DNA from: JAGLHV01 sp023132075 [NCBI: bacterium]
Lineage (GTDB): Bacteria; CBDUZB01; JAGLHV01
Length of the DNA stretch: 7,319 nucleotides
Assembly (NCBI GenBank): GCA_023132075.1
Contig: JAGLYT010000076.1
Span: 1 to 7,319 of the forward strand
Direction: 5' to 3'
Shown here: positions 3,411-7,319 of the stretch, piece after piece
Layout: each line of letters starts with the position of its first letter
Numbering within the stretch: the first letter of the stretch is position 1
Program-made: the position numbers and the translations under genes
Notes under the pieces: generated by a model
Database searches by the model: none
Told to the model about the DNA's origin: nothing
The model's input: only the letters and a program-made list of their open reading frames with translations

Positions 3411-6400
3411 CTACATCTTCCTTTTTACTTTTTTTATGAATTCTTTTATCTCCGCATCTCCTGGATCCAGATTAAGAACCCTTTCCCATTCAGCTACAGC
3501 ACGTTTAAAATCACCATCTCGATAGTAACAAAACCCTATAGCATAAAAAAGATCCTTACTTCTATCTACAGGTCTAACCCCTTGTGCAATATTATCCATT
3601 ATTTTGTTTATGTATGTAACATATCTTTCCGAATCATTTACCATTTTTTTATCATCCGGACTAAGATTTAATATCTGACTATATTTATCATAAGTTGTAA
3701 GCCACCTCTTATCTTTAAAATCTTCTTTTGCCTGAGCAGAAAGAATCTTACATTTTCGCTTTATTTCTTCAGCTTCTTTTTTAGCAATCTCCTTATTAAT
3801 CTTGTCAAGATATTTTAGAGCTTTCTTATCATTTGGATTAACTTTTAACAATTTATTTAAAGTTTTCTTTGCTTTTATCAACTTACCATCTTTATAATAT
3901 TTAACCCCTTTCTCAAAAAGTTTTTCTTTGTCCTTAGAAATCGCCATTAAAGAAAAAGATACTTTTACTTCCTTATCCCCCCATTTTAACCCCTTAGTTA
4001 CTTCCATCGCTTCATATTCTTTTTGTTTCCCAACTTTTATTTTGTATTTACCAGCCTTTAGAAATTTTTTCCAAACACCCTTTTCGTTTGTCTGCCCTAC
4101 CCATTTATTGTTAAGTAGGATATATGCATCATGAATATTACGCTCATTTGCAATATTTTTAGCTACTATCTTTAACACAATAGGTTTTGGTTTTAATATT
4201 GCTTTAACAACTTTTTTATCATTAATATTAACTTTAAAAGAACGACTTTCATATTTAGGCAACTTTTTAAAGCTTATGTCATAAGCATTTATAAGCAGAG
4301 GATATTTAAAAGGGGTCTTTTTACCATTTATTGCCGTTCCCTTTACATACACGCTGGCATTAATATCCTTTTTAGGATCTCCCTTTTCATAAGCATAAAA
4401 ATAAATCCATTTCTTAAGAACCGGATTAATATTTACTTCAGTATCTGCATTAACTTTAATTGTGCTTACCCACGGCAAAAATTCAGGCTTTTCTAACTTT
4501 ATTTTATATTCTCCTATTTTAATACTAATCTTCTGAGGAGTAGTCCCCCAGGCAGTCTTTGAATCATCTACATAAATAGCTGCCCCCTGAGGAGAAGAAT
4601 TAAGGGATATTTCTTTCCAAAAGGTCCCCAGCAAAGTATAATTTATTAAACCATCATCGACAACAGACGAATTTATATCCCAATATCTACGATCTATCCC
4701 TTCCTGATCGGATGCATCTTTAACTAGATTTACATTACATTGTCCCCGCATAGTAATCTTTTCAATGTTTCCTAAATCGTTAAATCCATCCATAACTAAT
4801 TTAACAGTATGTTCTCCCACTTTTATATTTTGAATTAAAGGAGTCTTTCCGGGTAATTTTTTTCCATCAATATAAATTTCCGCACCTTCGGGTAGTGAAT
4901 TAATTTCTAACCCAATCTCAAAAGGAATAGCAATTAAATTCATCTTATTTTTCTTATCGTTATCTGTAGTATCAACTCCATCAAGTTTAATATCCTGTTT
5001 TCCTTTTTCAATCCCAAATACCGTTATTCTGCGCTCAATATCTTTGTATCCCTCTTTCTTTAACATTAAGGTATAATTACCGGGCAAAATTTTTGAAATA
5101 TAAACCGGTGAAAAAGCATTATTTTTCAACACATTTTCCATATTATCGCTAACAAGGGAAACTGAAGCCCCTGAAGGAATAGTATCAACACTAAGAGTGG
5201 GAGGCCAAAAAAAGTTATAGATTTCAGTTCCTAAAGAAGTCCAGTGTTGAAATGTATCCAAAGCCACAAAACCAATTACACCAATTAACAAAGATAGAGA
5301 AACTCTAATAATCATTTTTTTATATCTATTAGCTGTATCCAGAACAAAATCAAATACGGTTTTTTCTCTTGGTTCTCCCTCTATTGCTATTTTTTCCTTT
5401 TCACCTTTCTTTTTAACTTTCTTTTTAACTTCCTTTTTAACTTCCTTTTCAACTTCATTCATTTCTTTTTTTATCTCTTTTTGTGTTTCTTTTTCTTCAG
5501 TTTCAGGTAAAACAAAAAATGGTTTTTGTTTTGCCGAGGAATCATTAGCTTTAACTTTTTCTACGGTTGTTTCCTGCTCAATTGCTGCTCTACGAGAACG
5601 ATTACTCTCTTTTTTTGAATTTTCTTCCTCTCTTTGTATTTCGTTTTTTAAATTTCCATATATAAATTCTTTGAATTCCCCCTTCAACATATGAGAATAT
5701 TTTTTTTGCTTATGAAGATATTCCTGTAAATCAACAAAGATATCTTCGTCATATTGATATCTTTTTTCTCTATCTTTCTTTAAAGATTTTGTTACCGTTT
5801 TCGCTAAGTTGTCAGGAACCCCCGTCTCTTTTAAAAGTTGCAAATTTACTCTGCCTTTTTTTACTTTTTCCCAAACATCATAATCAGTACTACCTTCAAA
5901 CGGCCATTGTCCCGTTAATAATCGATATAAAACTATTCCTATAGAATAAATATCAGAACGATAATCCAGCTCAACATCTCCCCTCGCCTGCTCAGGGGAC
6001 ATGTACGCAACCTTTCCTCTTAATGCTCCTTTTTTTGCCTTAGCTATATAACGGGTAGTTGCTTTAGCAATTCCAAAATCGGTAATTTTTATCCTTCCGT
6101 CAAAATAAACCATAATATTCCCGGGAGAAATATCACGGTGAACAATCCCCAACGGCTCGCCTGTAATTTCATCTACTTTAGAGTGAGCATATTTAAGGCC
6201 CTTTAAAACTTCACTGACAATATGCGATGCTAAATCAAAAGATATTTTTCTCTCCTGTTCCTGGCATTTTTCAAGGAGATCGTACAAATTACAACCCTTG
6301 ACATACTCCATAATAATGTAATAAATGTTATTCGCTGTTTTTAAAAAATCAATAACCCTAACAATATTTTCATGTTCCAACTTAGAACTATTAACCGCTT

Positions 6401-7319
6401 CATCTCTAAACATATCCAGAAATCTAGCTTCCTGAGAAAAAGATTTGTGTATTTTTTTAACCGCAACGAATTTTTCCAGGTTTATTGCCCACGCTTTATA
6501 AACAGAAGCAAATCCTCCTACCCCTATTTCTCTGATTATGTGATACCTATTTCCACTTGCTTTCAAAAATTCTTTTGTTATTTGTTCAAGATTTTCTTTT
6601 GCTGCACCAGAAACAATCTCTTGACTTACATTATCCTCTTTTTCTATTGCTTTTGCTATCGCCTCCTTCAATTGGCTGGCAGAAATAGGTTTTACTAAAC
6701 AGGCATTAGCATAATCTCTTATTTCCTCTTCCAAGTTTTCTTTAGAAGATTCATCAATTACAATTATATAATAGGCTTCCTTATCAATATCCCTAAGTTT
6801 TTTAATTGTTTCTAACCCATCCCCATCAGACAATTGATAATCAACCACTATTACATTAAAAATAATTTTACCAACCTTTTCAATCGCTTCTTCCCGGGTA
6901 AAAACACAAGTAACAACACACTCCTTCTTTCTCAAAACGTCAGACATAAACTTTGTTGATTGGGGATCATTATCAACTATCAGTATACTTTCTCCCCCAT
7001 GCTCAAATCGGCTAAAAGCTTTTTCTTTTTTCTTATGCATTTTTTTCTCTTTAAACTCCTTAGTTGCTTTTTTCTCTTCCTCTGCTTTCTTGTGCTCTTC
7101 TTCTTTTTTCTCCTCAGCGGCTTTTTTCTCTTCCTCTTCCTTCCTGCTCCTCTCTTCCTCTTCCTTCCTGCTCCTCTCTTCCTCTTCCTTCCTGCTCCTC
7201 TCTTCCTCTTCAGCTGCTATTCTCTCTTCCTCTTCCTTCCTGCGCTTCTCTTCTTCTTTTTCTTTCTCAACTGCTATTCTTTCTTCCTCTACCCTCCTGC
7301 GCATCTCTTCTTCTTTTTT
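3411..7319 (-). CDS. Receiver-Ser/Thr kinase-TM-PEGA-TPR signalling protein, 5'-partial
   Basis: This appears to be a membrane-bound Hanks-type Ser/Thr protein kinase with a fused two-component receiver domain. Numbers count from the in-frame ATG at 7304. The frame stays open through the window edge (KKEEE before that Met), so the true start lies upstream. Residues 1-97 are an E/K/R-rich helix. The receiver is at about 106-222 with D111, D113, phospho-acceptor D155 and K205. The kinase is at about 254-530 with the glycine loop GVGGFASVY, K283, E302, HRDISPGN (389-396), DFG (409-411) and SPE (436-438). A charged linker (550-660) precedes one membrane span at about 664-682, with Lys/Arg on the kinase side, which makes the kinase cytoplasmic. 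PEGA domains lie at about 703-774 (PSGA), 797-863 (literal PEGA) and 898-965 (PQGA). Two PEGA-like beta domains (966-1040, 1042-1120) and TPR-like helices (1123-1297) follow. Kinase function and PEGA calls are firm; the ligand and substrates are unknown. Confidence 0.93.
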   Translation of the reverse strand, partial: KKEEEMRRRVEEERIAVEKEKEEEKRRKEEEERIAAEEEERSRKEEEERSRKEEEERSRKEEEEKKAAEEKKEEEHKKAEEEKKATKEFKEKKMHKKKEKAFSRFEHGGESILIVDNDPQSTKFMSDVLRKKECVVTCVFTREEAIEKVGKIIFNVIVVDYQLSDGDGLETIKKLRDIDKEAYYIIVIDESSKENLEEEIRDYANACLVKPISASQLKEAIAKAIEKEDNVSQEIVSGAAKENLEQITKEFLKASGNRYHIIREIGVGGFASVYKAWAINLEKFVAVKKIHKSFSQEARFLDMFRDEAVNSSKLEHENIVRVIDFLKTANNIYYIIMEYVKGCNLYDLLEKCQEQERKISFDLASHIVSEVLKGLKYAHSKVDEITGEPLGIVHRDISPGNIMVYFDGRIKITDFGIAKATTRYIAKAKKGALRGKVAYMSPEQARGDVELDYRSDIYSIGIVLYRLLTGQWPFEGSTDYDVWEKVKKGRVNLQLLKETGVPDNLAKTVTKSLKKDREKRYQYDEDIFVDLQEYLHKQKKYSHMLKGEFKEFIYGNLKNEIQREEENSKKESNRSRRAAIEQETTVEKVKANDSSAKQKPFFVLPETEEKETQKEIKKEMNEVEKEVKKEVKKKVKKKGEKEKIAIEGEPREKTVFDFVLDTANRYKKMIIRVSLSLLIGVIGFVALDTFQHWTSLGTEIYNFFWPPTLSVDTIPSGASVSLVSDNMENVLKNNAFSPVYISKILPGNYTLMLKKEGYKDIERRITVFGIEKGKQDIKLDGVDTTDNDKKNKMNLIAIPFEIGLEINSLPEGAEIYIDGKKLPGKTPLIQNIKVGEHTVKLVMDGFNDLGNIEKITMRGQCNVNLVKDASDQEGIDRRYWDINSSVVDDGLINYTLLGTFWKEISLNSSPQGAAIYVDDSKTAWGTTPQKISIKIGEYKIKLEKPEFLPWVSTIKVNADTEVNINPVLKKWIYFYAYEKGDPKKDINASVYVKGTAINGKKTPFKYPLLINAYDISFKKLPKYESRSFKVNINDKKVVKAILKPKPIVLKIVAKNIANERNIHDAYILLNNKWVGQTNEKGVWKKFLKAGKYKIKVGKQKEYEAMEVTKGLKWGDKEVKVSFSLMAISKDKEKLFEKGVKYYKDGKLIKAKKTLNKLLKVNPNDKKALKYLDKINKEIAKKEAEEIKRKCKILSAQAKEDFKDKRWLTTYDKYSQILNLSPDDKKMVNDSERYVTYINKIMDNIAQGVRPVDRSKDLFYAIGFCYYRDGDFKRAVAEWERVLNLDPGDAEIKEFIKKVKRKM
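7141..7212 (-). repeat. Three tandem 24-bp repeats in the kinase N-terminal helix
   Basis: Three head-to-tail copies of a 24-base unit (7141-7164, 7165-7188, 7189-7212) are identical except for the last base of the third. They encode EEEERSRK three times (residues 32-55). Diverged E/K/R-rich copies flank them on both sides. The plus strand here is almost pure pyrimidine. Near-identity at the DNA level, including codon choice, indicates recent duplication by slippage or unequal crossing-over, so copy number may vary between strains. Confidence 0.9.

Follow-up and report, generated by a model that had tools for sequence, protein, structure and literature searches.

The window analysed here is a stretch of 7,319 nucleotides, the whole of contig G000:C364 in the draft genome of JAGLHV01 sp023132075 (1.87 Mb in 389 contigs), and the subject of this analysis is a gene in it for a predicted membrane Ser/Thr kinase that carries a two-component receiver on the same chain. 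The open reading frame (ORF) occupies positions 3411..7319 of the minus strand, encodes 1302 amino acids and is open at the contig edge, with its 5' end missing; all features given below for this gene lie on the minus strand. It begins with a charged stretch rich in Glu, Lys and Arg (7005..7319; 42 E, 25 K and 13 R in the first 100 amino acids), presumably a coiled coil, whose repeats break the assembly. A receiver domain follows (6657..6986), which matched the Pfam family Response_reg at residues 112-221 (E-value 2.4e-15, 57.1 bits against a cut-off of 30.2), and a linker (6552..6656) joins it to a kinase domain (5751..6545) that matched Pkinase at residues 259-523 (E 1.1e-46). The latter contains a glycine loop (GVGGFASV), the VAVK lysine (in VAVKK), HRD (in HRDISPGN), DFG and SPEQA; by domain and motifs, the protein is a Hanks-type Ser/Thr kinase, with its activity predicted. 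A charged juxtamembrane stretch (5316..5750) leads to a single membrane span at about residues 667-691 (5250..5315), called from hydropathy rather than by a dedicated transmembrane predictor. Pfam found three PEGA stretches after the span (E 3.1e-39, 133.2 bits against a cut-off of 20.8), which our own hidden Markov model (HMM) placed at 4998..5195, presumably on the outer side of the membrane, at 4731..4910 and at 4428..4610 (the best Pfam stretch, residues 901-970); a possible fourth PEGA-like domain (4200..4364) was detected by our own HMM only (E 5.1e-9), Pfam counting three. The chain ends with TPR-like helices, for which TPR_2 matched two stretches overall (41.2 bits against a cut-off of 27): a first TPR-like stretch lies at 3780..3908, where Fis1_TPR_C scored at its cut-off, and a second at 3456..3551 (best TPR_2 stretch, residues 1257-1288).

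An earlier note, made from the letters of this stretch alone, had placed a receiver, a Hanks kinase, a membrane span, at least three PEGA domains and TPR-like helices on one chain in this order. The HMM domain search of the translated protein, in which the receiver and PEGA segments scored over their family cut-offs, together with the hydropathy span and an uninterrupted frame in a congener, bore this out. Chance or an assembly artefact was considered as the origin of the domain order and was ruled out, because the congener G002 carries the identical order in one frame and the Pfam scores lie far over the cut-offs. The NCBIfam model PknB_PASTA_kin was missed (270.9 against 450 bits), and no PASTA family was listed in the Pfam scans of the window and congener proteins. 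Downstream of the kinase, on the same strand of the window, Pfam identified genes for S6, SSB, S18 and DUF2232, and no Rfam RNA element reached its gathering score in the window.

The congener G002 holds the whole gene in one frame on contig G002:C69. The encoded protein of 1422 amino acids is 84% identical to the window's kinase over residues 2-1302, and its order is an N-terminal cysteine domain (MDKCKLC...), coil, receiver, kinase, span, PEGA and TPR. In the genome of the window itself, contig C115 starts in a charged repeat that matches the end of the window (93% over 81 bp), and it encodes a cysteine-rich N-terminus followed by a coil of like kind; the ends of C364 and C115 share no exact overlap of at least 10 bases. 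Because of the synteny with G002 and the 88% identity between the cysteine domain of C115 and that of the congener, the N-terminus of the window's kinase very probably lies on C115. In a third congener, G001, contig C179 carries the two equivalent upstream genes and then, at its edge, the equivalent cysteine domain, and it ends at the coil; nothing closely related to the kinase body was found in G001, where the best match was another kinase of 37% identity. Outside the genus, no relative closer than the level 'same domain' was present among the matches listed.

We found that the receiver has a recognizable fold with an altered active site. A two-sequence AlphaFold2 model of low confidence (mean pLDDT, the predicted local distance difference test, 38.7), of which only the receiver part was usable, matched known receiver structures, best 3crn_A (Z 16.7, root-mean-square deviation 1.6 over 103 residues). 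The model of the PEGA/TPR part (mean pLDDT 38.1), in which the TPR helices alone were partly ordered, was not used. In CheY numbering, the receiver retains D12 (6972-6974), D57 (6840-6842, D160 of the 1302-residue frame) and K109 (6690-6692), and has N13 (6969-6971), I87 (6756-6758) and C106 (6699-6701) at three altered positions; the same residues occur in G002. The canonical receiver set of an acidic pair, D57, T/S87, Y/F106 and K109 is therefore present only in part. Among the other receivers, this is not the usual state: in the window's own genome, D13 was found in 23/26, T/S87 in 21/26, Y/F106 in 24/26, D57 in 26/26 and K109 in 25/26 full-length rows, one receiver being entered twice, and in G002 the counts were 23/27, 23/27, 25/27, 25/27 and 27/27, respectively. 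C106 occurred only in the receiver of the window's kinase, both in its own genome and in G002. The signal route of CheY is D57-T87-Y106, according to PMC7395124, and a CheY variant with T87I is reported to accept phosphate but not to generate clockwise rotation (Zhu et al. 1997, as cited in PMC3774744). In the window's receiver the classical output switch thus looks lost, and phosphorylation may still be possible because D12, D57 and K109 remain.

The receiver also appears to evolve faster than the rest of the protein. Simple pairwise estimates of the ratio of nonsynonymous to synonymous substitution rates (dN/dS) between the window's genome (G000) and G002 gave 0.45 for the receiver (a single estimate over ~117 codons). 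The values were lower in the other parts of the protein (kinase 0.12, PEGA region 0.15, TPR region 0.30, juxtamembrane stretch 0.31) and in the PP2C domain (0.15) and SSB (0.14). When 17 orthologous receiver pairs were drawn from the 30 and 28 receivers of the two genomes, the pair from the window's kinase had the highest value (0.43), followed by 0.35 and by a range of 0.06-0.30 for the rest.

To place the architecture among related kinases, 137 distinct kinase ORFs were surveyed, mostly the closest matches listed from 60 and 386 genomes; this was not an exhaustive set. The loci comprised 60 further regions, another 18 and those from searches, each with a kinase over the threshold of our own HMM. 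Domains were counted with our own HMMs and not with Pfam, ORFs cut at region ends may hide receivers or PEGA domains, and related genomes were counted separately. Of the 137 ORFs, 54 contained PEGA and 10 contained a receiver, and both together occurred only in the window protein and its G002 counterpart. Four other ORFs have the receiver N-terminal to the kinase (L080, L094, L151 and L168); three of them end in a Pfam TonB_C domain, and L151 is similar and has no Pfam TonB_C match. In all four, S or A replaces D57. Four further ORFs carry the receiver C-terminal to the kinase (L024, L166, L167 and L171; three of the four from family f107), and these keep D57 and K109, with S at position 87. 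The active site is accordingly altered in all six ORFs with N-terminal receivers, the window protein and its counterpart included, and in none of the four with C-terminal ones. Because those outside this genus may go back to a common origin, the N-terminal alterations count as two or more events rather than six.

Among the genomes searched, only this genus showed the full order of cysteine domain, coil, receiver, kinase, span, PEGA and TPR; each part, as well as the pairs receiver-kinase and kinase-PEGA and the set kinase-PP2C-FHA, occurs elsewhere in them. The earlier note had regarded the exact order as uncharacterized; no description of it was found in the open-access literature searched, and the words 'receiver' and 'PEGA' do not occur in the accessible part of PMC1262709.

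The neighbouring genes give the kinase a context. The upstream half of the G002 locus encodes, on one strand, an SLH-like protein (its SLH match below cut-off), a protein with two FHA domains and an FG-GAP propeller between two membrane spans (FHA-FHA-TM-FG-GAP propeller-TM, where TM is a transmembrane span), a PP2C-TM-PEGA phosphatase and the kinase; after the kinase come S6, SSB, S18, DUF2232, L9 and DnaB, of which S6 to DUF2232 were identified by Pfam in the window. The PP2C gene lies directly upstream of the kinase on the same strand, 23-53 bases away depending on the choice of start codon, and its product scored over the NCBIfam Stp1/IreP cut-off (250.6 against 230). The PP2C and FHA genes adjoin the kinase on the same strand in G002 and, as far as the coil, in G001; in the window's own genome the locus is split over three contigs, and the partner genes, like the cysteine domain, lie outside the window. 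These observations place the window's kinase in a kinase/phosphatase/phospho-reader locus. A paralogous set without a receiver was present on contig C39 of the same genome, consisting of a propeller protein, a PP2C protein and a short single-span kinase (L039:2147-4962, minus strand, G000:C39). The unrelated genome G011, listed at the level 'same domain' only, has a kinase-TM-PEGA gene that lacks a receiver, and behind it genes for an FHA-FHA protein and a PP2C protein. Because of these receiver-free sets, the receiver is best seen as an addition to a pre-existing kind of kinase/PP2C/FHA locus. The window's own genome also encodes a TonB-dependent receptor, which suggests a cell with an outer membrane.

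As an explanation of these data, we consider it fairly probable that the protein acts as the membrane-bound kinase in a locus for Ser/Thr phosphorylation, and that its receiver serves mainly as a fixed docking or dimerization module rather than as a gate controlled by a histidine kinase. We read the receiver as degenerate and phosphorylation-independent because parts of its phosphate switch are lost (N13, I87 and C106); the domains, gene neighbours, residues and evolutionary rates are direct observations, and the topology, ligand sensing, substrate flow and role of the receiver are inferred. In such a system, the kinase, the PP2C phosphatase and the FHA reader would each have, besides the predicted span, an outer domain (PEGA/TPR, PEGA and a beta-propeller, respectively), and the outer PEGA/TPR part of the kinase, beyond the inner membrane, would likely be a sensor or scaffold of something in the envelope. 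The kinase would phosphorylate itself and its targets, the PP2C protein would reverse this phosphorylation, and the FHA protein would read phospho-threonine and couple the reading to its outer propeller. The receiver, between coil and kinase, would position the kinase or hold a dimer without phosphate. It is also possible, if somewhat doubtful, that N-terminal receivers on membrane Hanks kinases recur as pseudo-receivers, allosteric modules that need no phosphate, and that the separate TonB_C set and this genus converged by loss of different residues; a two-component part would then have been put to new use as a fixed regulator of Ser/Thr phosphorylation.

Several observations weigh against a fixed module. 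The retention of D12, D57 and K109 in both congeners would not be required of a purely structural domain, and CheY with T87I is still phosphorylatable, as mentioned above. Another G002 receiver combines N13 with intact T87 and Y106, so that N13 may be tolerated. Degeneracy is not unique to this receiver, since two others in one 620-residue ORF of the window's own genome, and two in G002, are also odd. The high dN/dS is one pairwise value and lies below 1. Finally, 15 HATPase_c matches over cut-off are present in the genome, and an unlinked histidine kinase is possible.

The retained D12, D57 and K109, the phosphorylatable CheY with T87I and the 15 HATPase_c matches would favour the arrangement proposed in the earlier note, in which a histidine kinase, here an unlinked one, phosphorylates D57 and switches the Ser/Thr kinase on or off. 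The intact receiver fold agrees with it as well, and a precedent of a kind exists in PA3346 of Pseudomonas aeruginosa, in which a receiver is fused to a Ser/Thr phospho-signalling enzyme and controls it; that enzyme, however, is a phosphatase, and a histidine kinase reportedly phosphorylates its receiver (PMC12189002). We nevertheless regard such a gate as unlikely in the window's kinase. The three substitutions cost it one acidic residue as well as T87 and Y106 of the CheY route, its receiver evolves fastest of the 17 pairs, and D57 is missing from the N-terminal receivers of four other kinases. Moreover, the unpaired histidine kinase that the note had thought worth seeking upstream did not appear: no histidine-kinase domain (HisKA or HATPase_c) was listed among the annotated-size ORFs scanned in the congener's 20-kb stretch and the window, and the upstream genes there are those for the PP2C and FHA-propeller proteins instead. 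We give little credence to a reverse wiring, in which the receiver would serve the kinase or PP2C as a Ser/Thr substrate or docking site, or would sequester a partner such as an HPt protein or histidine kinase: Ser/Thr kinases that phosphorylate response regulators are described in PMC12189002, and a short linker joins receiver and kinase, but no positive sequence evidence points to this wiring. A reading of the receiver as a passive relic that is being lost is very improbable, since the highest dN/dS among the pairs and the existence of a G085 kinase with TonB_C that resembles the receiver-bearing ones and has no Pfam receiver are outweighed by a dN/dS of 0.43-0.45, below 1, a frame unbroken in both congeners and the retained D12, D57 and K109.

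The window's kinase resembles several known or surveyed systems in part. With the PknB/PrkC-type kinases and their PP2C partners (Stk/Stp pairs) it shares a Hanks kinase, one predicted span, outer repeat domains and, in the congener, an adjoining PP2C gene; unlike them, it has PEGA and TPR instead of PASTA, and a receiver, a coil and a cysteine domain precede its kinase. The kinase-TM-PEGA proteins of G011:C64 (L132:7258-9609) and G107:C116 have a common core with it (34% identity over residues 257-946), and in G011 FHA and PP2C genes follow as well, but in these proteins no receiver or cysteine domain was found and no TPR was listed. The receiver-kinase-TM-TonB_C proteins described above (L080, L094 and L168, with L151 similar) likewise have a receiver ahead of a Hanks kinase in a single chain, but end in TonB_C rather than PEGA/TPR, have S or A for D57 and have long linkers. 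The kinase-TPR-receiver proteins (L171, L166 and L167) and the kinase-receiver protein (L024) also combine the two domains on one chain; there, in contrast, the receiver is C-terminal and has D57, K109 and S at 87.

If the reading of the receiver as a fixed module is right, a Ser/Thr kinase can incorporate a two-component receiver that no longer has its phosphate switch, and caution would be warranted against taking every receiver-kinase fusion as cross-talk of two signalling systems. The contrast between altered N-terminal and unaltered C-terminal receivers, drawn from 10 receiver-bearing ORFs, is testable.

Two further observations concern other proteins of these genomes. A protein of 1757 amino acids with the order kinase-AAA-TPR-GAF-histidine kinase is flanked by stand-alone receiver genes (L040:2951-8224, minus strand, G000:C330; L044:126-5402, minus strand, G001:C406). 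The small domain at the N-terminus of the window's kinase has eight aligned cysteines (CxxC, C, CxxCC followed by FxISxG, and CxxC), and no Pfam family matched it over cut-off. It was found in 7 of the 386 genomes at E 0.001, one of these being a weak match with stops, and it also occurs as stand-alone ORFs of 68-87 amino acids. In three other genomes such ORFs follow CstA, which was identified by Pfam in one of them and by resemblance in the remaining two; in this genus they follow Der-, PlsY- and GpsA-like genes, which were named by eye. The copies of the domain lie at L042:8953-9168 (minus strand), L239:1997-2245, L240:3795-4055, L241:4628-4831, L242:4034-4267, L243:601-828 and L244:3289-3516.

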